Assembly (NCBI RefSeq): GCF_001632805.1
Contig: NZ_CP007220.1
Span: forward strand, 3,968,001-4,032,000
Direction: 5' to 3'
From: Mycobacteroides chelonae CCUG 47445
GTDB lineage: Bacteria > Actinomycetota > Actinomycetes > Mycobacteriales > Mycobacteriaceae
Length of the DNA: 64,000 bases
The notes beneath the pieces are model-generated. The model saw only the letters and a program-made list of their open reading frames with translations, had not been told where the DNA came from and did not search any database. A program made the translations under genes and the position numbers. How positions within the stretch are numbered: position 1 is the stretch's first letter; every line of letters begins with the position of its first letter. This document shows positions 17,446 through 53,976 of the stretch, in pieces.

Positions 17446-17451
17446 CACCGA

Positions 17452-18663: not shown

Positions 18664-18887
18664 CGATAGTTCGGTTCAATTTCTCTATTGTTTGAATCTC
18701 AAATTATCGGATCGCCGATCTACTAGAAATTCCGCCGATATACGTAAGGAAATATCATGCGGAGTGCAAATCACCTACGGCCAGTATGCCCACTTCGGAC
18801 ATACTGTATAGCTCAAACGGAAACACTCGCACATTAAGAAAACATCTGAGCAGCCGCCTGCCTTGCAGGCTCATATATCATTGTCCC

Positions 18888-19799: not shown

Positions 19800-20253
19800 G
19801 CGCCCATCCCCGCTGCCGCCATCCTGCACTCTTTTGCACATCACTCACCGGCGATTTGTGAAAATTGCACAAGGACGACGCCATCAACAAGTCATGATGC
19901 CGCACTGGGCGCAACGCACATCTGCTCAACAATATCTGGTTAATTTACACCTTGGCAGCCACCTCGCCTGCTGGCATTCTTTGCGACATTGGCAGCGTCG
20001 CCTTAAATCCTGTGGATAAATACTCGGCATTTGGCTATTTACCCGATTGGAGCCAGGGTACTCACTTTAGTTCGGCTTAGAAGCAGTTCTTCCATATAAG
20101 TGTGCGCTGGGTACAGAGAATTCCTGCGCCTTTTGCACGAATGCCGTTTTAGTCGTCGTCTCAATGCCGCGACACACCGTTCAAGGCACGCCGCCTCAGG
20201 ACGAACCACGGATTAAACAGCCGCCCGCAGGGGGGCGGTCAGGAGAAGAGGAC
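19800..20253. other. 454-bp AT-rich intergenic region before the porin operon
   Basis: No convincing gene. The region is clearly richer in A and T than its surroundings and carries repeated TTGCAC words (near 19834, 19864 and 20131). There is one LysR-type box, and a CCGCCC/GGGCGG pair (20221-20226, 20233-20238) just ahead of the ribosome site AGGAG (20241-20245) of the MspA gene, which could form a small hairpin in the leader. Confidence 0.6.
19856..19872. promoter_or_regulatory. LysR-type (T-N11-A) box candidate
   Basis: TTGTG-N7-CACAA is an interrupted palindrome with the T-N11-A layout used by LysR regulators. It lies 57 bp after the lysR stop and about 380 bp before the porin start. Confidence 0.35.
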
Positions 20254-39118: not shown

Positions 39119-39132
39119 GTGCCCCTGATCTG

Positions 39133-39148
39133 TGGGTCGGAAGTCACC
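39133..39148 (-). promoter_or_regulatory. DosR box facing the Rv2004c-like gene
   Basis: Reverse strand GGTGACTTCCGACCCA resembles the GGGACTTNNGNCCC core with one mismatch in the left half. If it acts at about -44, the transcript would begin near 39097, which would favour the ATG at 39076. Confidence 0.45.
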
Positions 39149-39193
39149 AGTTCTCCCCCACCAGGGCCCACTCCGCGTTCCCTGGGCCACATA

Positions 39194-39232
39194 CCCGGGG
39201 ACTTCGGGTCCGTGGCCGGTGACCAAATGCCC
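39194..39232 (+). promoter_or_regulatory. Pair of DosR boxes upstream of acg
   Basis: GGGGACTTCGGGTCCG (box 39194-39213) carries the GGGACTT core and a GTCC right half. A second, weaker site GGTGACCAAATGCCC (39218-39232) follows. Double boxes are known in front of acg in M. tuberculosis. The acg ATG is 59 bp downstream of the second. Confidence 0.55.
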
Positions 39233-39291
39233 TGTCCGCGCCCGGATGTGTCACCGAGAGTCGATATCACCACCAGTGAGCGGAGCCCGAC

Positions 39292-40284
39292 ATGCCCAAG
39301 ACGATGGTTCACATCGACGTAGTCCAGACTGCGATCCAACTTGCTTGCCGTGCACCGTCTTTGCATAACACTCAGCCATGGCGCTGGATCGTCGACCCGG
39401 GCTCCGGGGCCGGTGACTTGCACCTGTACCTGGACCGCTCGCGCTGCGTGAACAGAACTGACGACAGGGGCCGCGAAGCGATCATCAGCTGCGGTGCGGC
39501 TCTGGACCATTTCCGGGTAGCGATGGCCTCGGCGGGCTGGATGGCACGGGTGGAACGGATCCCCAACCCCGACAACCCCGACCATCTCGCGGCCATCACG
39601 TTCTTGCCCAGATCTGTCGTGGTGGTGGGTGATCGTCGACGTGCGGATGCGATCCTGCAGCGCCGCACCGATCGCCTTCCGTTCGAGTCGCCGCCGAACT
39701 GGTCGCAGTTCGCCCGGATGTTGAACTCGGTGATCTCCGATCGGGCGGTGATCCTGGATGTGATCGACGATGCGATGCGGCCGAGATTGGCCGAGGCGTC
39801 GGCACTCAGCGATGCCCTGCGTATCTACGATTCGGCCTATCAAAACGAACTCGATTGGTGGACAGCATCGTTCACGCTGAGAGAAGGTATTCCGCGCAGT
39901 GCGCTGGTGTCGGCCGGCGAGAGCGATCACGTCGACATCGGCCGCACCTTCCCGGTCGTCTCAGAACGGACCACACGGCCCGGCCTGCAGGAAGATCGGG
40001 CCAAGGTCCTGGCGCTGTCCACCGCAAGGGACACCCCAAAACACCTGCTGCGCTGCGGCGAGCTGCTATCCGAGGTGCTGCTGGAAGCGACCCTGGCCGG
40101 GATGGCGACCTGCACCATCACGCACATGCTGGAACTGACCGCCAGTCGCGAGGTCGTCGGCGCCACCATCGGGCGAGCGCACCCGCAGGCATTGATCCGG
40201 GTTGGCCTGGCTCCGACCTTCGGTCGCGTCCCGCCCCCGACGCCCCGGCGATCGCTTGCCGATGTGTTCGAGATCCGCGGCTAG
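39292..40284 (+). CDS. acg: Acg-family nitroreductase-like protein (Rv2032/Rv3131 type)
   Basis: 330 aa. Begins MPKTMVHIDVVQTAIQLACRAPSLHNTQPWRW in sense, the Acg signature; further blocks RTDRLPF, GIPRSALVSAGESD and RVGLAP agree along the whole length. Acg binds FMN but its active site is covered, so it is thought to store flavin rather than reduce nitro drugs. It is preceded by two DosR boxes and followed after 9 bp by a universal stress protein, so both belong to the hypoxia regulon. Several Acg paralogs are common, so the symbol marks the family. Confidence 0.92.
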   Translation: MPKTMVHIDVVQTAIQLACRAPSLHNTQPWRWIVDPGSGAGDLHLYLDRSRCVNRTDDRGREAIISCGAALDHFRVAMASAGWMARVERIPNPDNPDHLAAITFLPRSVVVVGDRRRADAILQRRTDRLPFESPPNWSQFARMLNSVISDRAVILDVIDDAMRPRLAEASALSDALRIYDSAYQNELDWWTASFTLREGIPRSALVSAGESDHVDIGRTFPVVSERTTRPGLQEDRAKVLALSTARDTPKHLLRCGELLSEVLLEATLAGMATCTITHMLELTASREVVGATIGRAHPQALIRVGLAPTFGRVPPPTPRRSLADVFEIRG

Positions 40285-40293
40285 GGCAGTGCC

Positions 40294-41151
40294 ATGAACG
40301 AGATCCCCACCCCCCAGTCCGCGGTGGTCGTCGGCATCGATGGTTCACGATCCGCGGTTCGGGCCGCGTTATGGGCGGTCGATGAGGCACTGCACCGTGA
40401 CGTACCGCTGCGCCTAGTCCACGTGGCTCCCCAGCCGGAGTTCCCGGAGTTCGACAACGAGCCAAGCACCGCCGGGATGGCGCTACGGCATGCCGTCCGC
40501 GAGATCGGGTCGACGCGAAAGCCAGTGAAGGTTCACGCCGATATCCGGCACGGACGGGTAGCGGACGTGCTGCTGGACGCCTCACGCAACGCCCTCATGT
40601 TGTGCGTGGGCGCGATCGGCATCAGCGGTTCCGACACCAGGAAAGTCGGATCCACGGCTGCGGAAGTTCTCCGGTCGGTGCGCTGCCCGGTCGCGGTGAT
40701 CCGTGATGGCCAGGTACCGGCCGGTGCGGAGCCCTCAGTGGTGGTGGAGGTCGACGAGACCCACGAGTCGGTGGCCTCGTTGGAACTCGCGGCGCACGAG
40801 GCACGGCTGCGCCGCGCACCGATGCGCGTCCTGCTGCGCCATCGCCCGATGCCTCTCTTCGGGCATCGGGTCGCCACCTTGGCACGCGGCGACCGTCAGG
40901 TGGCGGCCGTCCTGCTGGAGCGACGCCTAGCGCCGATACGGGTGCGGCACTCCGACCTGGACATCCGTGTACTCGATCCAGTGGGCGGCACGCTGGATTA
41001 CCTGGAACGCCACGGGCATTCCGTACAGCTGGTGGTTCTCGGAGCCGGCGATGCGGCACACGTGCAGGAGTTGGTCGGCCCCAATGGATGCGGCGTGCTG
41101 GGCCGGACACACTGTTCGGTGCTCGTTGCCGCGCGTCAGCGGCTGCTGTAG
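40294..41151 (+). CDS. Tandem universal stress protein
   Basis: 285 aa with two Usp domains. The first (1-145) keeps GIDGSRSA and the ATP motif G-2x-G-9x-GS (GAIGISGSDTRKVGSTAAEVL). The second (about 148-285) has EVDETHES and a final block without the glycine motif (GAGDAAHVQELVGPNGCGVLG), so it probably does not bind ATP. DosR-regulon Usps such as Rv2005c and Rv2623 share this architecture. It is co-transcribed with acg. Confidence 0.9.
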   Translation: MNEIPTPQSAVVVGIDGSRSAVRAALWAVDEALHRDVPLRLVHVAPQPEFPEFDNEPSTAGMALRHAVREIGSTRKPVKVHADIRHGRVADVLLDASRNALMLCVGAIGISGSDTRKVGSTAAEVLRSVRCPVAVIRDGQVPAGAEPSVVVEVDETHESVASLELAAHEARLRRAPMRVLLRHRPMPLFGHRVATLARGDRQVAAVLLERRLAPIRVRHSDLDIRVLDPVGGTLDYLERHGHSVQLVVLGAGDAAHVQELVGPNGCGVLGRTHCSVLVAARQRLL

Positions 41152-41303
41152 ACAGCACCATCGGGTGATGCCCACCACGCGTGATGCCTTCGTATGGGGT
41201 ACCTCGCTACTCGCGTCATCGGGACCGTGTCGGATCAGGATCGTTGTGTACCGCTTTTACACAACGAAACCGAGCCACACATCCCGTGCCGGGAGGAGTC
41301 GAA

Positions 41304-41735
41304 ATGATTACGCGAACTGCCCCGTACAGCGTCTCGCCGGACGTCAGCCTGCTCATCCTGGTTGAGGCCGGCCCTGCACACGACCTTCGTGAGCATCCGG
41401 GTGCAATCAACTCGGCCACACCGATTTTCGAGGCCATTCGGGTGGCCGGGCACACGGTTGCACCCCTTCACGCCAACGCCGCGGGTGTACCGCCCGAGCT
41501 GCGGTCCATCTTCGTGGTCACCGCGCCTGCCTGCCCCGAGTTCGAGCGGCTCGCCGAACATCTGCGGGCCCTTCCCGGTGTTGCCGCGACCTATCTGGAA
41601 TGTGATGACGCCCGCCCGGGGCCTGCCACCGTCAGTGCCATCCCGGTATCGATCGGCGCCCAGCGCCGGGCACTGATCCGCCGTGTCACCCACCGCGGCG
41701 TCGGTGCGCTGGGCGCACGCCGGCTGGCCGGCTAA
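41304..41735 (+). CDS. 143-aa protein of unknown function with a propeptide-like C-terminal half
   Basis: Start ATG 41304 with GGGAGGAG 6 bases upstream. The first half (VSLLILVEAGPAHDLREHPGAINSATP) is alpha/beta-like; residues 65-105 (FVVTAPACPEFERLAEHLRALPGVAATYLECDD) follow the pattern of the last helix and strand of subtilisin propeptides (LxxxPGVxxxYxExD). The last 35 aa are very basic. No signal peptide. It is convergent to an S8 peptidase unit. A weak DosR-like word (CGGGACCGTGTCGG) lies at 41218-41231. The propeptide reading is only pattern-based. Confidence 0.65.
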   Translation: MITRTAPYSVSPDVSLLILVEAGPAHDLREHPGAINSATPIFEAIRVAGHTVAPLHANAAGVPPELRSIFVVTAPACPEFERLAEHLRALPGVAATYLECDDARPGPATVSAIPVSIGAQRRALIRRVTHRGVGALGARRLAG

Positions 41736-41793: not shown

Positions 41794-42018
41794 TTACTGG
41801 ATACCCGCATTGGGCGGGGCGATATGCGTCCGCCCCTCGGGTTCCACCACCATTACTCCGGGGATATCCACCAGCGCAGCGGCATTCGCGATATCACCGG
41901 ATACCACGCCGATCTCGCGGTGCACCTGCATACCGGCCATGCCGGCGGCCCGCAACGCGGCCACCGTGCCGTCGAAATCACGCTCTTCGATCGTCACGGT
42001 GACCCGCTGCGCCGTCAC
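41794..42018 (-). CDS. Stand-alone I9-propeptide-like protein coupled to the S8 peptidase
   Basis: 74 aa from GTG 42018, overlapping the peptidase stop by 4 bp (GTGA). The pattern is beta-alpha-beta-beta-alpha-beta: VTVTIEERDFDGTVAALRAAG, then IGVVSGDI, ANAALVDIPGVMVVEPEG. This is how inhibitor-I9 / subtilisin propeptides read (FxxxxxALRxAGGxV...GxxSGxxxxxxxxxLxxIPGVxxVExD). A free-standing copy could fold or inhibit the peptidase in trans. Family assignment is by pattern only. Confidence 0.7.
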   Translation of the reverse strand: MTAQRVTVTIEERDFDGTVAALRAAGMAGMQVHREIGVVSGDIANAAALVDIPGVMVVEPEGRTHIAPPNAGIQ

Positions 42019-43289
42019 TGTGGGGCCTGTACTAGCCCGGCACCCACATCCACGGCCGGAACGTTGAGCGGTGTCGCGTGCTGCAACAGCACCGCCCAGA
42101 GCTGCCGGCCGGTGAGCCCCGTGGCCTCGCACCAGAGCGCCGCGATACCGGACACATGGGGCGTGGCCATGCTGGTTCCGCTGATCGAGTTGTAGCGCTT
42201 CGGCATCGGCCACGAGGAGTACACATCGACACCCGGTCCGGCGAGGTCGATGCGGCCGGCCGCCTTCGTCTTGGTGCTCGAACGCGCCGAGAACCAGCCC
42301 GGGTTCAAGGACGAATCCACCGCGGCGATGGCCATGATCGACCGGCTGTTCGCGGGCACGCCGACGAAGCCGTAGTTTCCGATCCTGCGGTTGGCGTTGT
42401 TCCCCGCCGCGGCGATGATCAGCGAACCGCGGTCCAGCGCACGCTGACCCACCGTCTCATAGGCGAGGGACGTCTTATCGACGTTGGCGCCCAACGACAT
42501 CGAGATGACGGCGCAGTTGTTGGCCACCGCCCAGTTGATGCCCGCGAGAATACCGCCGTCGGCCCCCGACCCGGCGTTACTCAGCACCTTGCCCGCGAAG
42601 ATCTCGGCCTCGGTCGCTGCTCCATAACGACGACTCCCCCGCGGAGAGCGCGGTCCACACGAGGTACCGATGCAGTGTGTGCCGTGCCCATGCCCATCGT
42701 CGGCGCTCTCGCCGTCGATGAACGACTGCATGGTCACGTGACGCTTCTTGAAGTCCGGATGTGCGGCGTCGAAGCCCGTGTCCAGCACCGCCACCCGAAC
42801 CCCGCGGCCGGTCTTTGAACTCGTGTCTGTTCTCGTGGCCTGCAGACCCCACGTCGACGAGTCATTATCGGCGTAGGCAGCGGCGAGCTCTTCGACGGTC
42901 GCGGTGTCGGCCTGCAACCGCGCGAAGAGGTCGGAGACACCATGCTGGTAGCCGCTGAGGTATTCGGCGGAGGTGACCGTAAGTGCGTGATGGATCAGCT
43001 CCGGTTCCACCGATAACACCGTGCCGCCGGCCGACGCCGCGGCCTGAAGCGCCATGGTCTGCTCCGGGTCGGAATCCACGACGGCCAGACCGAGCTCGTC
43101 GAACACCGTGGCATCGGCGTCGACGACGGCGCTGATATCCATCGCTTGATTCTCAAAATCGCGGCTGTGTGCGATGTTCGAGATCCCCGCGATACCTGCG
43201 AGGGTGGTGACGTTGTTTCCGCGCGCCGTTGCCGGTGCGAAGACAACCACTTGTCTTCCTGTGTAGATCTGCGGGTCGGTGTTAGTCAT
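42015..43289 (-). CDS. S8 (subtilisin-family) serine peptidase without signal peptide
   Basis: 424 aa. Catalytic triad D170 (VAVLDTGFD), H202 (GHGTH) and S373 (SGTSMATPHVSG); oxyanion N297 (AAAGNN). The first ~145 aa form an extended N-terminal domain, possibly a prodomain (GGTVLSVEPELIHHALT). There is no hydrophobic leader, so it is either cytosolic or exported in an unusual way. Downstream and overlapping is the propeptide-like gene; a holin-like gene is divergent 276 bp away. Confidence 0.92.
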   Translation of the reverse strand: MTNTDPQIYTGRQVVVFAPATARGNNVTTLAGIAGISNIAHSRDFENQAMDISAVVDADATVFDELGLAVVDSDPEQTMALQAAASAGGTVLSVEPELIHHALTVTSAEYLSGYQHGVSDLFARLQADTATVEELAAAYADNDSSTWGLQATRTDTSSKTGRGVRVAVLDTGFDAAHPDFKKRHVTMQSFIDGESADDGHGHGTHCIGTSCGPRSPRGSRRYGAATEAEIFAGKVLSNAGSGADGGILAGINWAVANNCAVISMSLGANVDKTSLAYETVGQRALDRGSLIIAAAGNNANRRIGNYGFVGVPANSRSIMAIAAVDSSLNPGWFSARSSTKTKAAGRIDLAGPGVDVYSSWPMPKRYNSISGTSMATPHVSGIAALWCEATGLTGRQLWAVLLQHATPLNVPAVDVGAGLVQAPQ

Positions 43290-43565
43290 TTCCAGGTCCG
43301 TCCTTTCCTGACGTACGTGATGGGAAGCCGCAGACGCCCAACGGCAGATAGACGCACTAGCTCGGCTACCAGCAATGGTCGGCAGCGTCGCGCGATTTCG
43401 AACGAGTGATCCACTACCTGCATTTGGGCGCGGTCTGTGCCGCCCCGGCGAGGCCGCAGCGCGTCATCTCATCGCCCGCCAGGAACGAAGTAGCCCGCTA
43501 CTCGTGCGGGTACCGGCCCGCGAGCCCTACCGTTTCAGCAGACCCATCACCCAAGGGAGCCGATC

Positions 43566-43811
43566 ATGACAACGCTTGAACGACAAGCAATCCGGCAGCC
43601 GTCACCGATACCCACGACCAAGGTTGCGGCCAGTGGCACCGCCGGCGCCATCTCGGTCGTGCTGGTCTTCGTCCTCGGCAAGTTCAATGTCGAGATACCC
43701 GGAGACGTCGGCTCGGCCATCACCGTCCTCTTCTCCGTCGCATCCGGGTACTTGGTGCACGAACGCACCGTTCTGCAGCCACCGGATTCGGAGAACACCA
43801 CGGACGAATGA
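43566..43811 (+). CDS. Holin-like small membrane protein
   Basis: 81 aa with AAGGGAG before the ATG. Two hydrophobic segments (GTAGAISVVLVFVLGKF and GSAITVLFSVASGYLV) are joined by a short EIPGDV turn, the layout of the r1t-type holins of actinophages, and the C-terminus is acidic. No endolysin or other phage gene is near. It lies between an S8 peptidase that lacks a signal peptide and the LuxR regulator, so a role in export or membrane stress is possible. Confidence 0.65.
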   Translation: MTTLERQAIRQPSPIPTTKVAASGTAGAISVVLVFVLGKFNVEIPGDVGSAITVLFSVASGYLVHERTVLQPPDSENTTDE

Positions 43812-43836: not shown

Positions 43837-46446
43837 CTATTCCTGCGGGTTCGCCAGGTCGCTCCACACGATCTTGGCAAGCTGATCACGGTCTGCGACA
43901 TCGAGTTTGATGCACGCTCGGTAGATGTGGCCTTCGATGGTCCGCACCGACAGCGTGAGGCGCTCGGCGATCTCGCGGTTGCACAACCCCTCCCCGATGA
44001 GCGCCGCGATCTCACGTTCACGTGCGGTGACCGGCAGCGGGCGCGCGGCGGCCCGGATCGCGGGCGTGGCCGCACCACCGCATTGACCTGCGATCCGCAG
44101 TGCACGCGCAGCGGATTCGGCGCTCTTGCTCCGGTCTCCATCGCGACCGCGTAACGCCACCGCCTGTGCTGCGGCATCCGCGGCCGAGAGCAGCAGGCCC
44201 GCGTTCTCGAACTCACCACTCACCACATCCAGCGCCGTGGCATCGGAGGCACCGACGGCGACTGCGTGCCACGCATACAGCTGCACCAGCGGACCATGCA
44301 CGCGTGGGACGAGCGACCCGAGGCGGCGACCCACGGTCCGGTCACCGAACCGCGCCGCATGGTGCAGAGCCTCGGCCTCCACCGCGTATTGGCCCGCGGT
44401 GTGTGCGGCGTCGGCCGCGCGCCGGGCGATGTCGACCGCCGATCGGTCTGCACCGCGCGCGGCGGCAAGCCAGGATTTCGCGATCAGCAGCTGGGGGTCG
44501 TGCAGTGCGACGAACTGTCCTGAGTGTTCTCCGGATTCGGTCAGCACGCGCTCGGCATCTTCGACCTTGCCGAGTGCGGCGTAGGCGCGGGCCAGCAATA
44601 GCCGTGCGGGCAGCTGCCAGGGCAGTGGCTTCTCGGCATTGAGCGCGGCCAGCGCCTGTTCGATGGACGATATCGCCGTCGGGAAGGCGCCGCGGTGCAC
44701 GGCAACCAGGCCGGCCATGATGCGCGCTATTGCCCACGCCAGAAACTGTCCGGCCGAGGAGAATTCGGTGTATTCCGTGACCCGGCGGTCGGCCAGCCGG
44801 AGCTGCCCCGTGTAGACGAGTGCCAGTACGTCGCAGTAACGCACCATCACCGCGATCATGCCGTCGGTGGATCTTTTCTGCGCGCGGCACCTCGCGGCGA
44901 TCGGCTCGAACTCGTCGCCGCGGCCAGCGACGGGCAGCGCGAGCCCGATACCGAACGCCGCGAATTCCACCGCCTGCCGGGGAGCCTCCGGATCCGACAG
45001 CACCAGCGTCGCCGCCGCCAGCCCCTCGTCGAACTGGTTCTCGTGCACGGCCAACGCCGCCCCCGTCGCGTCGACGACCAGTTTCAGCGCGGGATGCTGC
45101 ACCCGTTCACGCAGCAGTGCCATCAGCTCGTGTGCACGCCGCACATCGCCCATCGACCAGAACGCGATGGACACCAGCGGAAGGCCCCACAGGACCAGCG
45201 AGAGTTCATCGAGCTGGTCCGGATCGAACTCCGCGAGCACCTGCTCGGCTTCCTCGGGCCGACCCTGCCACAGCAGAGCGCGCGAGAGCACCTCGGCCGC
45301 GCGCAGCCCTCCGTCACGTTCCACCGCGCAGCGCGCCAGATGCTCACCCACCGGCAGGTTGGACAGATACACCGCGTCCTTCGCGGCGGAGACCAGGAGG
45401 GCCGGGTCGGTGGCCTCGTCGCTGCCGACCGACAACTGCGCAAGCCGGATGCGCTTGGCAGCCGAGTCGATGTCACGCTCCCGGAGTGCCCGCACCAGCT
45501 GACCGCGCAGACGCCGGGCCGATGCGGTGCCCACTCTGCGCCGGATCACCTCGCCCAGCATGGGATGGCTGAACCGCACATTCATCCGCCGGCCGTCGGC
45601 TTCGACACGGACGAAGCCGCTGAGCTCGGCACCATCCAGAGCATCGCCACCGGCGATCTCGCACAATGTGTCGAGATTGAGCGGTTCACACAAGGACAGT
45701 AGTTTCAGCACGTTGAGTACGTCGCCATCCAACTGTTCAAGGCGATCTCCGAGCAGTGCGGCCAGCCCCGACGGGACAACCGTGTTACCGCGCAGTTGCC
45801 ACACGCCGTTGACGGCGGTGAGGGATCCGGCCTCGACGGCCCCTTCCACCAGATGTCGCAGGAACAGCGGATTTCCACCGGATGACTCCCACATCACGTC
45901 GGCGCTCAGCCCTTCGAGGGCTCCGCCGAGCACCGATTCCACGAGGGCGACACTCTGCTGCTTGGTGAACGCCTCGAGTTCGAACCGGCGCAGGTAATCG
46001 TCTTTCCACAATGCGGTGACCGCATCCGGAACGGGCTCGCCGCTACGCACGGTGGCCACCAGCCGGCCCGCATGGCCGACCGCGATCTGATGCAGCAGAG
46101 TCGCCGACAGATCATCCAGCAGATGAGCATCGTCGATCCCGATGATCGGATGTGGCGTCGCGACAATGGATTCCCGCGCCGCAGCAATGAGCGCAGCCGG
46201 GTCACGCGATCCGGTTGTCTGTATCCAGTGAGCGAACACGCCCAGCGGAATGTTCCGCGACGACTCGGTGCACGCCACCCAGCGAACCTGGCATTCCAGC
46301 GAGTCGGTGACCGTGCGCGCGAGGGTGGTCTTGCCCACTCCCGCCGACCCGACCAGCACCACACCGCACGACAGGCTGTCCGACAGCGTCGCGCGGACGG
46401 CCTCGAATTCGTTTGGGCGGTCGAGCAACTGCCAGCTCCCCGACAT
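43837..46446 (-). CDS. Large LuxR-family ATPase regulator (LAL/MalT type)
   Basis: About 869 aa. N-terminal AAA/NACHT-like ATPase with Walker A GSAGVGKT (33-40) and Walker B PIIGIDDAHLL; a long helical TPR-like middle; C-terminal LuxR HTH (LTAREREIAALIGEGLCNREIAERLTLSVRTIEGHI in pieces). I start it at ATG 46446: the -10-like TAAACT (46455-46460) lies 8 bases ahead, so it may be made from a leaderless mRNA as well as by read-through from the catalase gene. It is the obvious regulator of the divergent dioxygenase operon. Confidence 0.88.
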   Translation of the reverse strand: MSGSWQLLDRPNEFEAVRATLSDSLSCGVVLVGSAGVGKTTLARTVTDSLECQVRWVACTESSRNIPLGVFAHWIQTTGSRDPAALIAAARESIVATPHPIIGIDDAHLLDDLSATLLHQIAVGHAGRLVATVRSGEPVPDAVTALWKDDYLRRFELEAFTKQQSVALVESVLGGALEGLSADVMWESSGGNPLFLRHLVEGAVEAGSLTAVNGVWQLRGNTVVPSGLAALLGDRLEQLDGDVLNVLKLLSLCEPLNLDTLCEIAGGDALDGAELSGFVRVEADGRRMNVRFSHPMLGEVIRRRVGTASARRLRGQLVRALRERDIDSAAKRIRLAQLSVGSDEATDPALLVSAAKDAVYLSNLPVGEHLARCAVERDGGLRAAEVLSRALLWQGRPEEAEQVLAEFDPDQLDELSLVLWGLPLVSIAFWSMGDVRRAHELMALLRERVQHPALKLVVDATGAALAVHENQFDEGLAAATLVLSDPEAPRQAVEFAAFGIGLALPVAGRGDEFEPIAARCRAQKRSTDGMIAVMVRYCDVLALVYTGQLRLADRRVTEYTEFSSAGQFLAWAIARIMAGLVAVHRGAFPTAISSIEQALAALNAEKPLPWQLPARLLLARAYAALGKVEDAERVLTESGEHSGQFVALHDPQLLIAKSWLAAARGADRSAVDIARRAADAAHTAGQYAVEAEALHHAARFGDRTVGRRLGSLVPRVHGPLVQLYAWHAVAVGASDATALDVVSGEFENAGLLLSAADAAAQAVALRGRDGDRSKSAESAARALRIAGQCGGAATPAIRAAARPLPVTAREREIAALIGEGLCNREIAERLTLSVRTIEGHIYRACIKLDVADRDQLAKIVWSDLANPQE

Positions 46447-46549: not shown

Positions 46550-47674
46550 TCAGTCCGGTAGATCCTGAACCCCGGCCGGCTCCATCCGCGACACACCGTT
46601 CTTCTCATGCCGAAAGTTGCTGGAGGCCTCGTAAACCCGAAGTTTCAACCTGTTGATCGACCCCAATGGCCGATGCGCGGCCAAGGCGCGCCATGAATTG
46701 AAGGACAGTACGTCGTCGCCGAACACCCGCCTCTTGTCACCATATGAATCTTGCACGGGGAAGACGATTTTGGCGATCCCCCGGTGCGGGGAGTCCCCTT
46801 CCGGCCACGCGACGGTGGCATCCTCCAGGGGCATGGTCTTCTCGTCGGTGCACAGTTGCGCCCTCAGTTCGTACTCAGCACTGTTGTGCCGGAAGAACTC
46901 TGATACCAGGTGGCGGAACTCGTCGTCGGCGATGTCGTCCGGCAGAAGTACCCCTTCGAGGTCCCGCACGGACTTCGACAGCGGTACGTAACTGAGCTTG
47001 GCCACATAGTCTCCGTACCGCAGCGGCGCCGAGGAGTAGAACGTGTCACCGAGGATGTGGGTGTTGGGCCGAACGAACACGGCCACCGATTCCGGCAGTG
47101 AGAGTCCCACGCGTGGAAGAAGTTTCGCCACCCCGCCCAGAAGGTTGCTGCCCAGCCTCAGCGCGGTGTCCGGCAGCCGCGCCAGCAACCAGGCCGTGGG
47201 CATCCCCCGCCGTAGATATGCTTTCGCGTCGGCGAAGAGGAACTCGCGGTGGGTGACCAACACGAAATCCTGGGTGGTGGCCTCGTCATCGGGCAGAGTC
47301 CGCGAACCTGCCACACCCAGGACCTTGATGCCCAGGCCCCGCACGCCCCGGATCCGGTCGCTGCGCAGCAGACCGGACGTGGTGGACAACCTGGAGATGA
47401 TCGGATAACTACCGGGAGTTGCGAACATGCCTTGGCGTAGGTGCGGCGGTAGATCCGGATAGACCGTCAGCTCACCGCGCAAGATGCCGTGGCTCTTCGC
47501 ATGCGCATCACGGACGGCATGCCGATACTTCCGGAAGGCCCGCTGGTTGTTCGTGTGCAGCACCTTGACGATTTTGTCGATGGCTTCCTCCTCACCGGGA
47601 GGTGCCACGTCCATGTTCTCGTTGTACCGAAGGTAGGTACGCGTCGCTTCGAGCGATTCATCAGTGGCGCCCAT
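46550..47674 (-). CDS. Catalase-family hemoprotein (y4iL-like, small)
   Basis: About 374 aa from ATG 47674 (GGGAGG upstream); longer starts exist to 47779. Catalase-fold marks are the distal His in RDAHAKSHGILRGELTVY (H58 or H62), the R-S element PIISRLSTTSG, GVRGLGIKVLG and TQDFVLV, and a C-terminal proximal Tyr in LRVYEASSNFR. It lacks the C-terminal flavodoxin domain and parts of a true catalase. Related minimal catalases and the coral allene oxide synthase act on organic or fatty-acid hydroperoxides. It is head to head with a fatty-acid alpha-dioxygenase. Confidence 0.85.
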   Translation of the reverse strand: MGATDESLEATRTYLRYNENMDVAPPGEEEAIDKIVKVLHTNNQRAFRKYRHAVRDAHAKSHGILRGELTVYPDLPPHLRQGMFATPGSYPIISRLSTTSGLLRSDRIRGVRGLGIKVLGVAGSRTLPDDEATTQDFVLVTHREFLFADAKAYLRRGMPTAWLLARLPDTALRLGSNLLGGVAKLLPRVGLSLPESVAVFVRPNTHILGDTFYSSAPLRYGDYVAKLSYVPLSKSVRDLEGVLLPDDIADDEFRHLVSEFFRHNSAEYELRAQLCTDEKTMPLEDATVAWPEGDSPHRGIAKIVFPVQDSYGDKRRVFGDDVLSFNSWRALAAHRPLGSINRLKLRVYEASSNFRHEKNGVSRMEPAGVQDLPD

Positions 47675-47889
47675 CGCGGTCCAATCCTCCCGTATTAGTG
47701 GTCCGGGACGGTCGATATCCATCGGACACGGTGACGTTCTCAGTGTCGTGAATGCCGGAGGTGCCGCGCATGAGTACACGACTACTCAATCCTGCGCTGC
47801 GGCCGGCCCCGATGTGCGTGAATTGACGAGGTATTCCCGGTGCGATCGGAAATCCGATTTCGTGGGGATCGAGTAGCGCAATACTCACG

Positions 47890-47905
47890 TTCTGACTCGT
47901 CAGAA
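47890..47905. promoter_or_regulatory. Palindromic operator between the catalase-luxR and dioxygenase operons
   Basis: TTCTGACTCGTCAGAA: perfect 7-bp arms around a 2-bp centre, 18 bp upstream of the dioxygenase ATG. A further GTCAG half-site follows at 47909-47913. Two-fold symmetry and position fit a LuxR-type dimer site. Confidence 0.55.
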
Positions 47906-47922
47906 TTTGTCAGCATTACGGT

Positions 47923-49728
47923 ATGGCGAAAAAGAGTGGACCCGCCACATCAGCCACCACATTGGCCTCGTGGCTCGCAACACGAATTGATCGGTCGGTC
48001 GGGTGGTCACGCCTGCCCACGGCATTCGGCATCGCAGTACTCATCGGGCTCCGTAACGCGCTGCGCGCCGACAATCTGTTCGATACGGGGCGGGCGCCGG
48101 GTGGATCACCGCCACCGGAGAACGCCGCGTACCGCGCTGCCCGGACGTTGGACGGCACCTACAACAACCTCGAACACCCCCTGATGGGGTCGGTGGGCAG
48201 CAGGTTTGGGCGTAACGCGCCCCTTGCCCAAACCTTCCCCGAGTCCTCCGAACAACTCCTGGACCCGAACCCGCGGCTGATCAGCCGCAGGCTGCTGACC
48301 CGCGACGAGTTCATCCCGGCGACGACGCTGAACGTGCTGGCCGCGGCATGGATCCAATTCGAGGTCCACGACTGGTTCAGCCATAACACCGTCGAAGCCG
48401 AGCCATGGACGGTTCCGCTCGACGGGAACGATCCGTGGCCACAACGGCCGATGCAGATACGCCGCACCGCACCCGACCCATGCCCCGATGCGTCCGGCCC
48501 CCCGACGTTCGTCACGCAGGACACCCATTGGTGGGACGGATCGCAGGTCTACGGTGGCACCCGCGCCATCGCCGATGCACTGCGTACCGGCGCCGGGGGC
48601 ACGCTACGGCTGGACGGGCAAGGCCTGCCGCCTGCTGATGTCGAGGCGCTGGCCAGCACATCAGAGACGGCCGTGAACTTCTGGGTCGGCCTGGCCATCC
48701 TGCATTCGCTGTTCATGCGGGAACATAACGCGATCTGCGAGCATCTGGCTGCCTGTCATCCGGAAATGTCCGACCAGGAGCTGTACGACAAGGCCCGCCT
48801 AGTCAACACAGCGCTGATGGCGAAAATCCACACGATCGACTGGACTCCCGCCATAATCGGGCACCCCACCACGGTATTCGCGATGAACTCCAACTGGTCC
48901 GGCATTCTGGGCGAGCGCCTAGGCAACCTATTTCGGCGCCAGCCACATAACGCTCTGCTGCGCGGTATACCCGGCTCCCCCACAAGTCTGCATAACGTGC
49001 CATATTCGCTGACCGAAGAATTTGTCGCGGTGTACCGCATGCACCCGCTAATTCCCGATCGTTTCGTGCTGCGGTCGGCCTCCGATGATTCCGTGATCGC
49101 CGAACACGAATTGCCGGATCTGGCCGTACAACATGTGCGAACCCGCTTCAGCGAGACGTCGATAGAGAACATCATTTATTCGTTCGGCCGTGCCAATCCG
49201 GGCGCGCTGACTCTGCATAACTTCCCGCGTCATCTGCAACGTCTGGAGCGGCCGGACGGATCCATTCTGGACCTCGCCGCCATCGACGTTCTTCGGGTCC
49301 GTGAACGGGGCGTGCCCCGTTACAACGAGTTCCGGCGGATGCTGCGGCTGCGGCCGGTGTCTTCGTTCGGCGAGCTCACCGACGACCCCGTGGTGGCTAA
49401 GGAGCTCGCGGCCATATACGGCGATGTCGAGCGAGTGGATCTGATGGTCGGGCTGTACGCGGAGCCCAAACCGAAGGGATTTGGGTTCAGCGACACCGCT
49501 TTTCGGATCTTCGTGCTGATGGCGTCCCGCCGGTTGGAGAGCGACAGATTCTTCACGTCCGACTTCCGGCCCGAGATCTACACCCCAGAAGGCATCGCGT
49601 GGGTCAGGGACAACTCGATGCGGTCGGTGCTGCTCCGTCACTTCCCATCCCTGGATGCCGCCCTGGACGGCGTGGCGAATCCTTTCGCACCGTGGACGCC
49701 CGCGTGGGCCAGCGGATCGACCAAGTAG
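47923..49728 (+). CDS. Fatty-acid alpha-dioxygenase-like animal haem peroxidase
   Basis: 601 aa. The sequence follows plant alpha-DOX: DGTYNNLEHPLMGSVGSRFGRN, distal His149 in QFEVHDWFSH, His303 in KIHTIDWTPA, and catalytic Tyr371 with proximal His374 in EEFVAVYRMHPLIPD. The Tyr-to-His303 spacing (68) and Tyr-His spacing (3) equal those of the rice enzyme. alpha-DOX adds O2 to the alpha carbon of a fatty acid to give the 2-hydroperoxide, which decays to a one-carbon-shorter aldehyde. No signal peptide. First gene of a plus-strand operon with two peptidases and a hydrolase. Confidence 0.9.
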   Translation: MAKKSGPATSATTLASWLATRIDRSVGWSRLPTAFGIAVLIGLRNALRADNLFDTGRAPGGSPPPENAAYRAARTLDGTYNNLEHPLMGSVGSRFGRNAPLAQTFPESSEQLLDPNPRLISRRLLTRDEFIPATTLNVLAAAWIQFEVHDWFSHNTVEAEPWTVPLDGNDPWPQRPMQIRRTAPDPCPDASGPPTFVTQDTHWWDGSQVYGGTRAIADALRTGAGGTLRLDGQGLPPADVEALASTSETAVNFWVGLAILHSLFMREHNAICEHLAACHPEMSDQELYDKARLVNTALMAKIHTIDWTPAIIGHPTTVFAMNSNWSGILGERLGNLFRRQPHNALLRGIPGSPTSLHNVPYSLTEEFVAVYRMHPLIPDRFVLRSASDDSVIAEHELPDLAVQHVRTRFSETSIENIIYSFGRANPGALTLHNFPRHLQRLERPDGSILDLAAIDVLRVRERGVPRYNEFRRMLRLRPVSSFGELTDDPVVAKELAAIYGDVERVDLMVGLYAEPKPKGFGFSDTAFRIFVLMASRRLESDRFFTSDFRPEIYTPEGIAWVRDNSMRSVLLRHFPSLDAALDGVANPFAPWTPAWASGSTK

Positions 49729-49808
49729 GCGAATACTCATGACCGACAAGGACGTTTGGGTTCACAATCGTCAGATGAGTTCCACCGGATTCATGCCTTC
49801 GGTGTGCG

Positions 49809-51335
49809 ATGACTAGCCCCGTGCCACGCGGACCCAAGCGGCCATCGGTCATCAGCCCGATGGTCCTGGCCGATCCGCAGACGGCACTGCCGGCCGAGGC
49901 CAACGCCTTGGTCACCGACGATGACGACCGCAGGATGGTGCTGATCGAGCTTCTCGTCGGCGCGGGTGTCGACCCCGATGACGTGCGCGACCAATTCCTG
50001 CATATGTTCCATCGGGTACTGCGCGACGAGCCGCCCACACCAACGCCCGTCGGCCGCCACTATGTGCGGTGCATGCTCACCCCCGACGAAATCCAGCGCC
50101 TGGTCCGTGGTGGGGCCAAGTCCCCTACCGCCAAGAGCGCACAACAAGCGCTGCAGCTGATCCGGCGGGTGTGGCCGGATCTGGTGGTGGAGGCGCATCT
50201 GGACCGCTCACTCACCACGATCAAGGCCGATGCGGCGATCCGCACCTATGGCTCCGGCGGGACCGGAGTCGTTTGGGCCGTGCTGGATTCGGGAATCGAT
50301 GCCGAGCATCCCCATTTCGCCGCCAACGGCACCCTCACCGCGGATTCCGTGATGCCGCTGCACAAAGATTTCACGCTTTCCCCGGAGGCCTCGAAGGGGC
50401 CGCTCGTCGATGTCTACGGACACGGCACCCATGTGGCAGGCATCATCGCGGGCGAATCCCCCACCGACCCGAAGCTCATCCGGATCGCATCCACTCAACC
50501 AACTGCCGAGGGGTTGCCGGAATGGGTCCCGCGAGTGTTGGCGCAGGGGTCGCGGCTGTCCGGGGTGGCGCCGCACGCCAACCTGGTGAGTCTCAAGGTC
50601 CTCGACGACGACGGCAAGACCCTGTCGAGCGTGCTCATCGACGCCCTCAACTACGTACGCGAGATCAACAGCTACGGCAACGATCTACAGATCCACGGCG
50701 TGAATCTGTCGCTGGGATGCGGATGGATGCCAAGGGATTACGCGGCGGGCCAGAGCCCGCTGTGCCGCGAGCTCGATCTGCTCACCGGGTCAGGGGTGGT
50801 CTGCGTCGTGAGTGCCGGAAACCTCGGGGCCGGCACCGCGGCGGCCGGTGTGGGCGCCGCGATCATGGGAACGACAGCCGATGTCTACGGTCAGCTCTCC
50901 ACCATCACCGACCCCGGCAATGCTGCCACCGCCATCACCGTCGGCTCGGTCCACCGGTACCGGCCGCATACCAGCGGTGTCACCTTCGACTCCTCCAAGG
51001 GGCCCACTCTCGATGGCCGACGCAAACCCGACCTGGTGGCCCCTGGTGAGCGGATCACCTCTGCGGCAACCGGTCTCATGGCCAAGGGCATTGACCTGTT
51101 GAAGGACGACGGCACCGAGGGTGCCGCCAACTACATCGAAGACAGCGGGACCTCGATGGCCGCCGCACATGTGTCGGGTGCGATCGCCGCGTTCTTGTCG
51201 GCGCGCACGGAGTTCGTGGGTAAACCACAAGAGGTCAAGGACATCTTCCTGAAGTCGGCCGTCGACTTGGGGCGCCACGAGTTCTTTCAGGGCGCGGGGC
51301 TTGTCGACCTGATGCGTGCACTATCCAACACCTAG
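49809..51335 (+). CDS. Second S8-family serine peptidase, no signal peptide
   Basis: 508 aa. Triad D160 (WAVLDSGID), H205 (YGHGTHVAG), S449 (DSGTSMAAAHVSG), oxyanion N338 (VSAGNLG). The ~145-aa N-terminal region (VDPDDVRDQFLHMFHRVL, HYVRCMLTPDEIQRLV) is not a standard prodomain; it may dock partners or sense a signal. It differs in length and insertions from the peptidase at 42015. It lies 80 bp after the dioxygenase and 17 bp before an alpha/beta hydrolase. Confidence 0.92.
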   Translation: MTSPVPRGPKRPSVISPMVLADPQTALPAEANALVTDDDDRRMVLIELLVGAGVDPDDVRDQFLHMFHRVLRDEPPTPTPVGRHYVRCMLTPDEIQRLVRGGAKSPTAKSAQQALQLIRRVWPDLVVEAHLDRSLTTIKADAAIRTYGSGGTGVVWAVLDSGIDAEHPHFAANGTLTADSVMPLHKDFTLSPEASKGPLVDVYGHGTHVAGIIAGESPTDPKLIRIASTQPTAEGLPEWVPRVLAQGSRLSGVAPHANLVSLKVLDDDGKTLSSVLIDALNYVREINSYGNDLQIHGVNLSLGCGWMPRDYAAGQSPLCRELDLLTGSGVVCVVSAGNLGAGTAAAGVGAAIMGTTADVYGQLSTITDPGNAATAITVGSVHRYRPHTSGVTFDSSKGPTLDGRRKPDLVAPGERITSAATGLMAKGIDLLKDDGTEGAANYIEDSGTSMAAAHVSGAIAAFLSARTEFVGKPQEVKDIFLKSAVDLGRHEFFQGAGLVDLMRALSNT

Positions 51336-51352
51336 AGACAAGCGAGTACATC

Positions 51353-52624
51353 ATGACAACGATCAAAGGATTGCCCTACTACGAACCGGATTTCAACGCG
51401 GACGGCTCACTCAACGACGCCACCGGTGACGGCGATGGCGGTCTGCCGGCCGCAGTCGCAGCCGGTGGTATCACCGATCTGTTCCTGATGTCACACGGAT
51501 GGAACAACAGTGTGGCTTCCGCGCGCCAGCTCTACACCGCGATGTTCTCGTTGATCGCCGATCAGCTCGGCGGCGATACCGACGGTGTGGCCGTCGCGGG
51601 AATCAACTGGCCGTCGGTGCTGCTGCCCGACGACAGCCCCGATAGCGCGCCGCCCGTACCTTCCACGGGCGCGGAGCTGGCCGCGGCGCTCACGCCACGC
51701 TTCCCCGGCCAGGCCGCGCAACTGAAAAAGATGGGCGAGCTGCTCGACGAGAAACCGCAGCAGTCCGCCAAGCTCATCGAGTTCCACACCTTGGCCGCCG
51801 GACTGGTCACCACCCCCGCCCAGTCACAGGAAGACAGCGGCGAGTCCGACATCGTGAAGGGCGATCCGCTCGCGGTGTTCGGGCAAGCCTCTGCCATGGC
51901 ACCGAAATCGACGAGTGCCGCACAGGGACTTGGCAATCCCTTCGCCGCGCTGTGGTCGGGGGCTCGCGAGATTCTGCGCACGATGAGCTATTACGAGATG
52001 AAGAACCGGGCCGGAGTTGTCGGCCAGCGCGGCCTCGGTCCGCTGCTGGCCGCACTGTCAGGCCCCGACGGCCCGCCCCGTATTCACCTCATCGGACACA
52101 GTTTCGGGGCGCGACTGGTCTCCTACGCGCTGGCAGGGCTTCCGACAACCGGCACCAGCCCCGTCAAGTCGCTCACCCTGATCCAGGGCGCCTTCTCCCA
52201 CTTCACCTTCAACCGCAAGCTGCTCTTCGACCCGGGCCGCGGACCCGGCGGCCTCGCCGGGCTCGAAGAGCGTGTGGACGGGCCGCTGCTGTCGACATAC
52301 ACCGCCGCCGATCGCGCGGTCGGCTGGTGGTACCCGGCGGCCAGCATGCTTGCTCGGCAGGACAGCCAAGCCGGACAGGACCCCTGGTTCCGCTGGGGGG
52401 CAATGGGTCACGACGGGTACCAGCAGGACCCGGCCGCGACGCCACTCGAGCTTGCCGAGGCCGGTAAGCCGTACGACTTCCAGCGCGGGCATTTCTACCG
52501 GCTTGACGCCAACAAGGTCATCGACGACGCCAGCCAATCCCAGTTCAGCGGTGCGCACAGCGATATCAAGCATCCGGAGGTGGCGTGGGCTATCGTCTCC
52601 GCCGCGCGCGCCTCTCAGAACTGA
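51353..52624 (+). CDS. Alpha/beta-fold hydrolase (lipase-like)
   Basis: 423 aa. Oxyanion region DLFLMSHGWNN (the HGWN pattern), nucleophile Ser250 in IHLIGHSFGARLV, and likely acid and His in the last third (GYQQDP; SDIKHPEVAW). A long insertion (about 90-200) separates the first strand and the nucleophile, probably a lid. No signal peptide. It could release fatty acids for the dioxygenase two genes upstream. Confidence 0.85.
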   Translation: MTTIKGLPYYEPDFNADGSLNDATGDGDGGLPAAVAAGGITDLFLMSHGWNNSVASARQLYTAMFSLIADQLGGDTDGVAVAGINWPSVLLPDDSPDSAPPVPSTGAELAAALTPRFPGQAAQLKKMGELLDEKPQQSAKLIEFHTLAAGLVTTPAQSQEDSGESDIVKGDPLAVFGQASAMAPKSTSAAQGLGNPFAALWSGAREILRTMSYYEMKNRAGVVGQRGLGPLLAALSGPDGPPRIHLIGHSFGARLVSYALAGLPTTGTSPVKSLTLIQGAFSHFTFNRKLLFDPGRGPGGLAGLEERVDGPLLSTYTAADRAVGWWYPAASMLARQDSQAGQDPWFRWGAMGHDGYQQDPAATPLELAEAGKPYDFQRGHFYRLDANKVIDDASQSQFSGAHSDIKHPEVAWAIVSAARASQN

Positions 52625-52744
52625 ACACGAAAACTGCTCCCGCAGTGTGAGATCGAGTACCCCACTACGCATGAATCAAGCTCCGGTACCGAACAGGATG
52701 AACACGTCCTAGCTCGAACTCACACCCTATGCAGGGAGACAAAA

Positions 52745-53689
52745 ATGGCCACCGCAGTCAAGTCGACGAATCACAAGCCGTCCGAAACCGAGTACGAAAT
52801 TTCAGGGGCCGCGGGTGCGGCCGCTGTCACCGAACACGAATTGCCGTCGGCACAAGCGAGTAACGCCGACACCGAAACCACCAACGCCGCAACACAAGCA
52901 CACGGTGAATCCACAGTCAGTGAACTGGGTTCGGTCGACGGGTTGAGCACCGACGAGTCGGAACTCGCACCACTGGACGCCATTCTGGGCAGTTATCCCG
53001 AGTTGGCCAACAGCGCCGAGGTAATCATCGGTACCGATGATCGCGTTCGGGTCGGCAACACCACCACGTTCCCCTGGCGTGCGATCTGCCACCTGATCAT
53101 CACCTCCGCCAACAACCGCACCTATGTCGGAACGGGCTGGCTGATCGCTCCCCGCACCGTGATGACGGCCGGACACTGCGTCTACATGCATGCCGATGGC
53201 GGCTGGGTGCGCTCGATCCAGGTGATCCCCGGGCGCAATGCCGGTGTCCGCCCGTTCGGCACTCACGTAGGTACCGCCTTCCGCAGTGTCACCGGCTGGA
53301 CCCAGAATCAGAATCGCGACAACGACTATGGCGCCATCATCCTGCCGTCGTCGTCACGTCCGGGCGATCAGACGGGATACTTCGGTTTCGCCACCCGCAA
53401 TGACGATTTCCTGAAGGCCGCCGCGCTGAACCTGTCCGGGTATCCCGGCGAGAAGAACGGCGAGCAGTGGTTCATGGCGCAACGCACCAAGTCAGTCTCC
53501 GACCGCGTCATCACCTACGACATCGACACCACGGGCGGTCAGAGCGGTTCACCGGTGTGGGTGTTGCAGAACGGCAACCGTTACGGCGTCGGCATTCACA
53601 CCAACGGCGCCAACTCGGGCAACTCGGCCACCCGGATCAACAGTGCCGTCTTCAACAACATGTCGACGTGGAAGAGTGGCGGTATGTGA
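52745..53689 (+). CDS. V8-like trypsin-fold serine peptidase, no signal peptide
   Basis: 314 aa. Residues 1-95 form a Ser/Thr/Glu-rich low-complexity pro-region; the catalytic domain has H144 (MTAGHCVY), D194 (RDNDYGAIIL) and S267 (TTGGQSGSPV), the pattern of glutamyl endopeptidases. The acidic pro-region holds many Glu sites at which self-cleavage could occur. Fourth gene of the dioxygenase operon; the 120-bp gap before it may hold a second promoter. Confidence 0.9.
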   Translation: MATAVKSTNHKPSETEYEISGAAGAAAVTEHELPSAQASNADTETTNAATQAHGESTVSELGSVDGLSTDESELAPLDAILGSYPELANSAEVIIGTDDRVRVGNTTTFPWRAICHLIITSANNRTYVGTGWLIAPRTVMTAGHCVYMHADGGWVRSIQVIPGRNAGVRPFGTHVGTAFRSVTGWTQNQNRDNDYGAIILPSSSRPGDQTGYFGFATRNDDFLKAAALNLSGYPGEKNGEQWFMAQRTKSVSDRVITYDIDTTGGQSGSPVWVLQNGNRYGVGIHTNGANSGNSATRINSAVFNNMSTWKSGGM

Positions 53690-53733
53690 CAAGGCTTTTC
53701 AGGTAATCAGAGAATCCGGACACAGGAGGATAC

Positions 53734-53976
53734 GTGGTCGGCATCTCGTTTCGAGACTCCGCCGGGCGTCCGATGGCCGGTGCTGTGATCAGCATCGACT
53801 CGGCGCCCGGCGAGGTCCACGATATTGCCATGGTGGCCGACGATTGGGGCGAGGTGGTCATCTCCGCACCGGTGGTCGGTGACTATCGATTTCTTGTGTC
53901 GCACACCGGGAAGACCTTTCATGCCACGGCCCATATCGCCGAGGGACAAGATCAGCTGACGGTGACCGCCGGCTAG
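53734..53976 (+). CDS. Small beta-sandwich (carboxypeptidase-regulatory-like) protein
   Basis: 80 aa from GTG 53734 with AGGAGG 4 bases upstream. The pattern FRDSAGRPMAGAVISIDSAPGE...DDWGEVVISAPVVGDYRFLVSHTG is a CarboxypepD_reg/Cna-B-like beta-sandwich, a binding module. Last gene of the operon, 44 bp after the V8-like peptidase. It may be a docking or inhibitor subunit. Confidence 0.7.
   Translation: MVGISFRDSAGRPMAGAVISIDSAPGEVHDIAMVADDWGEVVISAPVVGDYRFLVSHTGKTFHATAHIAEGQDQLTVTAG

Follow-up and report, generated by a model that had tools for sequence, protein, structure and literature searches.

Why should a gene for a fatty-acid alpha-dioxygenase stand in one run with genes for proteases that lack a signal peptide? 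The question is raised by a locus of Mycobacteroides chelonae CCUG 47445, within a stretch of 64,000 nucleotides (NZ_CP007220.1, positions 3,968,001 to 4,032,000, here called the window; GC content 64%, parent genome 5.03 Mb). The initial annotation had described it as an operon of five plus-strand genes, encoding the dioxygenase, an S8 peptidase, an alpha/beta hydrolase, a V8-like peptidase and a small beta-sandwich protein, head to head with a unit of a catalase-family gene and a LuxR-type ATPase gene. We propose, with a probability of about 60%, that the locus is one regulon of this ATPase, a large ATP-binding LuxR (LAL) regulator, which would make an oxylipin and deploy latent, signal-less hydrolases.

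This proposal builds on a 16-bp dyad, GAGTA-N6-TACTC; the intergenic region between the catalase-like and dioxygenase genes is conserved around its two copies. Exact copies in the window number 2 against 0.03 expected, and none of 100 shuffles reached 2. Copies with at most one mismatch number 6, all between 41197 and 52670 (11.5 kb), against 0.425 per 64 kb in a first-order simulation whose largest count was 3. The half-site was picked by eye from a Mycobacteroides alignment, and therefore only other genera put the dyad to the test. In other lineages it stands upstream of unfused close relatives of the dioxygenase exactly in 20 of 29 cases and with at most one mismatch in 25 of 29, while 29 permuted versions of the half-site gave means of 0.00 and 0.24, respectively, upstream of these dioxygenases. 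The dyads and genes of the locus are as follows.

41197..41212, dyad with one mismatch (GGGTA-N6-TACTC), 73 bp ahead of the gene at 41286; also in L168-L170, L172 and L173 (L numbers are our labels for related stretches)
41286..41735, plus strand, 149-aa protein with a possible I9-like domain (subtilase propeptide/inhibitor-like, by eye), without significant Pfam family
41794..42018, minus strand, 74-aa I9-like protein (by eye, without Pfam family), overlapping the preceding S8b gene by 4 bp
42015..43289, minus strand, S8b, a second S8 protease without signal peptide (Peptidase_S8 1.2e-41)
43488..43503, dyad with one mismatch, between S8b (minus) and the 81-aa gene (plus)
43566..43811, plus strand, 81-aa membrane protein, kept across Mycobacteroides loci
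43837..46446, minus strand, LAL-type LuxR regulator of 869 aa (AAA ATPase, TPR, GerE helix-turn-helix)
46550..47722, minus strand, catalase-like hemoprotein, allene-oxide-synthase/mini-catalase type fold (from Pfam Catalase and the predicted fold)
47772..47787, perfect dyad GAGTACACGACTACTC, shared intergenic region, catalase side
47871..47886, perfect dyad GAGTAGCGCAATACTC, shared intergenic region, dioxygenase side
47923..49728, plus strand, fatty-acid alpha-dioxygenase (An_peroxidase 2.9e-111)
49723..49738, dyad with one mismatch, before S8; exact in L009, L010, L013, L168-L171 and L173
49809..51335, plus strand, S8 protease with an N-terminal region of about 150 aa; D160, H205, S449 (Peptidase_S8 2.6e-41)
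51353..52624, plus strand, alpha/beta hydrolase; S250 (GHSFG), D320, H402 (Abhydrolase_1 0.0004, under the curated cut-off)
52655..52670, dyad with one mismatch, before V8
52745..53689, plus strand, V8/glutamyl-endopeptidase-like protease (Trypsin 5.4e-10; PDB 1p3c 1.9e-16)
53734..53976, plus strand, small beta-sandwich protein (CarboxypepD_reg 3.5e-05, under the curated cut-off)

All genes of the locus are complete frames and, by Pfam and PDB comparison, the families, order and strands first assigned to them hold. The catalase and LuxR genes are real as well, but their unit had been drawn too short: it extends leftward, and the 869-aa regulator, whose call begins at an internal ATG in a frame open to 46608, lies outside the coordinates first given. 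The set as a whole reaches to about 41197, taking in S8b with its small I9-like gene, the 81-aa and 149-aa genes and two further dyads; these genes are tied to the set because of the dyad sites. Because dyads also sit in the two longer gaps of the plus-strand run (49723 and 52655), this run probably has three transcription starts, for the dioxygenase, for S8 and hydrolase, and for V8 and the small protein. Loci from Mycobacteroides and Mycobacterium sp. records encode proteins that are 84-97% identical. A search near the locus for sigma-70 promoters, terminators and Rfam elements gave nothing beyond chance except the tRNA.

Conservation of the five-gene operon first proposed was not borne out by the neighbourhood survey. 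The ordered five genes were seen in Mycobacteroides only, and the operon was rejected as a unit because other lineages pair the dioxygenase with the catalase-like protein and the LAL, not with S8, and because dyads lie inside the run. Judging from gene order, two older modules underlie the locus: (A) dioxygenase, catalase-like protein and LAL, and (B) S8 and hydrolase. The genes of module A point the same way in L074, L076 and L100 (LAL split over two frames in L100), as they do in ten loci, L230-L239, from outside the genus. In Mycobacteroides, the dioxygenase points away from the catalase and LAL genes and leads the S8-hydrolase run; since it runs with them elsewhere, this orientation looks derived. 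Module B also stands alone, apart from the dioxygenase, in loci that include Mycolicibacterium, Kitasatospora and Arthrobacter stretches without dioxygenase. A search of genome contigs with the hydrolase gave 19 loci, in 17 of which S8 adjoins; S8 was not found in L021, and the hydrolase of L027 is broken. In relatives' loci, genes were taken from our own gene-calling script and local profiles, with Pfam run on chosen representatives.

The two modules nevertheless travel together. Among 248 genomes of the genus, 37 carry a close dioxygenase (at least 60% identity), 41 the hydrolase (E below 1e-40) and 31 both (Fisher p 6.8e-25, kinship ignored), the hydrolase being present in 31 of the 37 genomes with a close dioxygenase against 10 of the 211 without; six genomes with weaker hydrolase matches were left out of these counts, one of which (G504) is among the 37. 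Of 29 genomes whose sole dioxygenase is a distant one (44-50% identity, irrespective of its partner), 1 has the hydrolase. Dioxygenase and hydrolase lie within 15 kb in 26 of the 31 genomes, in four layouts: co-directional in 7 (Mycobacteroides), divergent at about 2-4 kb in 13, 12-13 kb apart in 5, and in G555 with the hydrolase immediately ahead of a fused dioxygenase. The remaining 5 genomes have the two genes on separate contigs or 1 Mb apart.

It could be argued that chance or a mobile insertion has brought two unrelated modules side by side, and that the dyads belong to several regulators. Each module is found without the other, the V8 and papain parts are lineage-limited, some dyads stand ahead of unrelated-looking genes, and S8-hydrolase pairs without dyad exist. 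However, the strong co-occurrence in several layouts, the dioxygenase leading the S8 run of Mycobacteroides, and the dyad carried by both modules even when 12-13 kb apart (L180, L187, L188, L194) argue against this explanation, which we consider very unlikely. The strongest argument against a chance neighbourhood is that three loci repeat the combination of the window with different members. L233 holds, all co-directional, dioxygenase, catalase-like protein, LAL, a trypsin-alpha/beta-hydrolase fusion, V8, the small beta-sandwich protein and S8. L263 and L265 lack catalase but have a LAL of this subfamily, another heme peroxidase (truncated in L265, where the contig ends), V8 with the small protein, M10, NucA and the trypsin-hydrolase fusion.

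Returning to the proposed regulon, the dyad also precedes other members of the set. The upstream counts by gene family leave out L010, L011, L013, L016 and L019; L010/L173, L011/L172, L013/L171, L016/L175 and L019/L216 are taken to be the same genomes because their rows or frames are identical. Upstream of S8 the dyad is exact in 10 of 41 and has at most one mismatch in 18 of 41, and a separate S8 site exists in L015, L017, L026, L075, L077, L180, L187, L188, L194 and L216; in L015, L017 and L216 the S8-hydrolase pair has it though the stretch is without dioxygenase. With at most one mismatch, the dyad precedes S8b in all 7 Mycobacteroides copies tested, M10/astacin metalloproteases in 8 of 9, NucA in 2 of 3, another heme peroxidase in 2 of 4, the trypsin-hydrolase fusion in 1 of 3 and papain in 1 of 5; for V8 outside Mycobacteroides, it does so in 3 of 8 rows, that is, 2 of 7 genomes (L233 and L247 are one genome). 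It is also found upstream of Tle1-like genes (L278, L240, L241) and of an endonuclease/phosphatase-family gene (L240-L242; Pfam on L240). Before the usual second and third genes it is rare or absent (hydrolase 0/66, LAL 3/58, catalase 2/34 with at most one mismatch), and none of 11 distant dioxygenases, 9 with a cytochrome P450 and 2 with neither partner, has it. Co-regulation through the common dyad is thus well supported at the level of sequence. Together with the recurrence of proteases at other dioxygenase or LAL loci, the dyad supports the proteases as members of the set, where their presence had first been left unexplained.

In addition, a further companion was seen at several of these sites: a gene of about 250 aa (L230 12450-13199 and 11 further loci), without Pfam family and perhaps CYTH-like by eye, is mostly divergent from the dioxygenase and shares its dyad, which is exact in 7 of the 12.

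Several observations weigh against the reading of one LAL regulon. The LAL is no more than a candidate binder of the dyad. Dyads with up to two mismatches are at chance level in the window (8 against 8.4 expected), and fused dioxygenases of other lineages have a low share of sites (5/15 exact, 7/15 with at most one mismatch). Many of the S8 dyads are the divergent dioxygenase's own site. Nine S8-hydrolase pairs of the genus away from the triad are without dyad, and one of these nine, in L214, has a LAL of the same subfamily adjoining; among five further LAL stretches examined, only L278 has the dyad before an effector-like gene. The co-occurrence statistic ignores kinship, the Mycobacteroides order being inherited by descent, and the signal-peptide rule used below depends on the start chosen, flagging the dioxygenase at the gene caller's later start. 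The genome of the window has 5 exact dyads in total, where the reversed pattern has 2, with no excess outside the locus, and the extended form with at most one mismatch gives 9 against 10 for the control, again without enrichment outside the locus. L025 has eight dyads with at most one mismatch (7737-20005) in a locus of 21 kb, before other genes too. No such dyad was found in four loci of the Kitasatospora/Arthrobacter group or in 16 hydrolase loci of one genus with large genomes, probably Streptomyces.

A genome-wide regulon in the genome of the window was rejected, as sites outside the locus occur at chance frequency; its three other exact sites, which precede a LysM gene, a 206-aa/Gly-rich pair and a 169-aa/177-aa pair, are leads only. 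The first is a perfect palindromic dyad 46 bp ahead of a LysM-repeat gene (L286 2905-3640, G000:C1:3313904), and it may be chance because the reversed control has 2 genome sites. Elsewhere, the eight sites of L025 lead genes for an M4 protease (best PDB 2vqx), a peptidoglycan amidase (9hna) and a membrane protein family found in L021 and others; the regulon may extend beyond the locus.

What, then, would the oxylipin pair do? The label "alpha-dioxygenase-like" given to the first enzyme is borne out. Its best PDB relatives, 4kvj (1.5e-114, 386.8 bits, residues 23-592) and 4hhr (6e-109), are plant alpha-dioxygenases, and COX-2 scores 63.7 bits, placing the protein nearer alpha-dioxygenases over its full length. 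Y371 aligns with the tyrosine that is phenylalanine in 4kvl; Y371, H149 and H374, presumably the catalytic tyrosine and the heme histidine pair, are invariant across 13 aligned sequences. The second enzyme matches Pfam Catalase below the cut-off (0.00018), and its predicted fold is of the catalase/allene-oxide-synthase type. H74 aligns in the profile with the distal histidine of the catalase HAKG (R..HAK motif), and by eye the distal asparagine is replaced by T150/Q151, Y364 is invariant and K360 stands at the place of the arginine. A true catalase disposing of H2O2 is not favoured, because of the loss of the distal asparagine by eye and the pairing or fusion with the dioxygenase.

The pairing itself, which had been suggested from known chemistry, is supported by fusions and gene order. 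In a dioxygenase tree of 69 rows, 65 of them different (identical rows were kept), the catalase-like gene is fused or within 4.5 kb in 56 of 58 close-type rows; the remaining two are L180, whose stretch ends early (catalase and LAL continue in L217), and L188, at a contig end. A dioxygenase-catalase fusion in one frame of 929-1026 aa accounts for 16 rows, or 15 distinct loci with L016/L175 counted once, of which L244 is outside the genus; Pfam recognises both domains in the L016 fusion. On the tree, the fusion label needs 4 changes, at least 2 of which (gains or losses) are forced by the starred branches. Distant dioxygenases (45-50% identity) pair with a cytochrome P450 in 9 rows, Pfam having been run on one P450. 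Since the close type pairs with the catalase-like protein and the distant type with a P450, the dioxygenase has, by its neighbours, two alternative second partners, as described for oxygenases of fungi, cyanobacteria and corals in the accessible parts of PMC11719350, PMC13049297 and PMC5617202. The catalase-like and LAL pair also occurs without a close dioxygenase (L240-L243, L245, L246). In L240-L242, this pair lies near a distinct heme peroxidase of 522-534 aa and the endonuclease/phosphatase-family gene, with dyads.

The regulator combines an N-terminal AAA_22 ATPase (2.7e-07) with a C-terminal GerE helix-turn-helix domain (1.1e-10) at the size of this family, about 870-900 aa, and is 56-69% identical to 12 relatives (13 sequences), whose genes, in the aligned loci, adjoin those for catalase-like proteins, heme peroxidases or peptidases. 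We take the LAL itself to be a STAND-like ATPase.

With respect to the hydrolytic arm, S250, D320 and H402 of the hydrolase are invariant in 38 aligned sequences, and caspase-like CHAT proteases adjoin all five distant hydrolase relatives tested (L092, L093, L209, L210, L211). The S8 of L078 has an Mrr_N-like N-terminus (8.4e-06, under the cut-off). S8b was not found in L013, L170 or L171. V8 is limited within the genus to Mycobacteroides loci, one of which (L013/L171) is without it; the small beta-sandwich protein is a recurrent V8 neighbour, also in L262, L266 and L267 and not in L264. The small protein is a candidate V8 inhibitor, and the 74-aa I9-like protein is a candidate inhibitor or chaperone of S8b. 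A chagasin-family inhibitor comes after papain in L016 and, as judged with local profiles, also in L174, L175 and L177. An intracellular protease and its inhibitor in one operon are known from protealysin and emfourin (accessible part of PMC9505478). The description of the peptidases as signal-less holds by our own simple rule on annotated starts, which found a Sec signal in 0 of 28 set proteins against 50 of 614 background frames. In the trypsin fusion, the C-terminal part, named alpha/beta hydrolase from Abhydrolase_6 (0.0003, under the cut-off) and motif reading, has no direct profile match to the hydrolase family of the window (probability 0.5%), and an operator-led 508-aa protein of L242, by eye an M6-type protease, has no PDB match.

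We propose that the parts would work together as follows. On a signal, the LAL would bind the GAGTA-N6-TACTC dyads and the units of the locus would be switched on together. The dioxygenase would introduce a hydroperoxy group at C2 of a fatty acid, and the catalase-like protein would turn this 2-hydroperoxide into an acid with a 2-hydroxy or 2-oxo group or into a shortened aldehyde; these products are our assignment from the enzyme families. The signal-less hydrolases (S8 with the alpha/beta hydrolase, V8, S8b) would be made alongside, and small neighbours may keep proteases inactive in the producer (beta-sandwich protein for V8, I9-like protein for S8b, chagasin for papain in relatives). S8 probably sets its partner hydrolase free or activates it, and this hydrolase may in turn supply the fatty acid to the dioxygenase. 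The role in lipid signalling or defence that was first suggested is conjectural.

The genes directly left of the locus (window 37559-41151) encode AAA_33, weakly nitroreductase-like and universal stress proteins, a set that we presume to be of the type known from dormancy (DosR-type) regulons. They would suit a metabolic regulon under the same regulator, in which free fatty acids are alpha-oxidised or detoxified and cell material is recycled in starvation or dormancy, and alpha-dioxygenases elsewhere shorten fatty acids (accessible part of PMC9305512). We find this explanation unlikely: the recurrent nuclease, the phospholipase-like genes and the protease-inhibitor pair are unlike housekeeping, the hydrolase kin have CHAT partners, and the spread is patchy (a single-protein search found the hydrolase in 4 of 121 genomes of the family). 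Because NucA, metalloproteases, the trypsin-hydrolase fusion and phospholipase-like genes are led by dyads in other lineages, deployment against another organism or self-lysis fits better than catabolism, and the purpose of the proposed LAL regulon would be conflict or lysis.

One form of this regulon would be a released antimicrobial arsenal, with the oxylipin as toxin, a competitor as target and the inhibitors guarding the producer. Beside the hydrolase of L182 lies an 818-aa protein (13894-16350; equal-length frames in L183 and L185) with an LQRLAGNQAV motif that resembles cargo of contractile injection systems, and the set has no signal peptides by our rule. The papain-chagasin pair resembles protealysin-emfourin, read by its authors as a possible effector and immunity pair (accessible part of PMC9505478). 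However, no secretion or injection family was found among the window genes scanned, a search that was not genome-wide, and the inhibitor role of the V8 and S8b neighbours is itself conjectural, so we hold this form to be doubtful. It is also tempting to consider, tentatively and at less than even odds, a programme of death or attack in Mycobacteriales: a STAND-type LAL would sense damage or a lipid signal and fire, through one operator, the oxylipin and an arsenal swapped between lineages, directed at protein, nucleic acid, phospholipid and peptidoglycan, with some members kept latent by inhibitors and the oxylipin acting both as weapon and as feedback on the LAL.

A literature search, largely without subscription papers, brought up no account of a system like this one. 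The nearest pairing is the cyanobacterial tandem of a catalase-related protein and a heme dioxygenase (the 2012 fusion cited in the accessible part of PMC11719350), together with the coral allene oxide synthase-lipoxygenase (3dy5, 1u5u). In contrast to these, the oxygenase here is of the alpha-dioxygenase type, it comes first in the fusions, and the LAL and proteases stand alongside. The active-site tyrosine and two heme histidines of plant and cyanobacterial alpha-dioxygenases are retained; in the accessible part of PMC9305512 the words "operon" and "gene cluster" do not occur, and no comparable partner in an operon or regulon is described. The regulator is like actinomycete LALs in being a large ATP-binding LuxR protein in or beside gene clusters; unlike the cluster LALs in the accessible part of PMC3282765, its subfamily adjoins catalase-like, heme-peroxidase or peptidase genes.

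Among conflict systems, the relatives recall System 3 of eLife 2020 e52696 (accessible part of PMC7159879), in which NucA occurs with trypsin and S8 peptidases; NucA stands with a trypsin-type gene in L021 and L263, and in L265 by local profiles. System 3 is mostly alphaproteobacterial according to the same text, whereas the core here would be a LAL with candidate operators and the oxylipin pair. The protease and hydrolase, with hydrolase kin beside CHAT, also resemble the caspase-like protease and alpha/beta hydrolase pairs of MoxR-vWA or GTPase-core systems in that paper, whose main text does not contain the words "peroxidase" or "catalase". Among the window genes scanned there is no NucA and trypsin core (V8 is trypsin-fold, NucA is absent), and no MoxR-vWA, GTPase, EAD or STAND core above the cut-off, although the LAL is itself STAND-like. 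Matches to known anti-phage systems (PADLOC-DB 2023) are at family level only; S8 matches PDLC03014 "subtilase" with 172 bits and IetS weakly.

The locus offers a sequence-level test, with one operator and one regulator, of the roles of bacterial alpha-dioxygenases and catalase-related proteins, and it links oxylipin chemistry to protease and nuclease arsenals in the family of Mycobacterium and Nocardia. If the LAL binds the dyad, a number of peptidases, heme peroxidases and phospholipase-like proteins that are poorly understood would gain a common regulator, and the trigger could be searched for. If true, the death or attack programme would be a bacterial counterpart of plant and animal oxylipin-plus-protease immunity.

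Finally, a further cluster lies between S8-hydrolase and the triad in L073 (13953-17940) and L074 (2-6001), and similarly in L180, L187, L188 and L194. It encodes a NarL-type LuxR regulator, an S8 protease with PatG_D/PatG_C (cyanobactin-type) domains, a class III aminotransferase, a carboxylic-acid-reductase-like A-T-R protein and an astacin/hemopexin protease, with frames of 48 and 128 aa in L073, L180, L187 and L188, and is possibly a modified-peptide or lipid-amine cluster.

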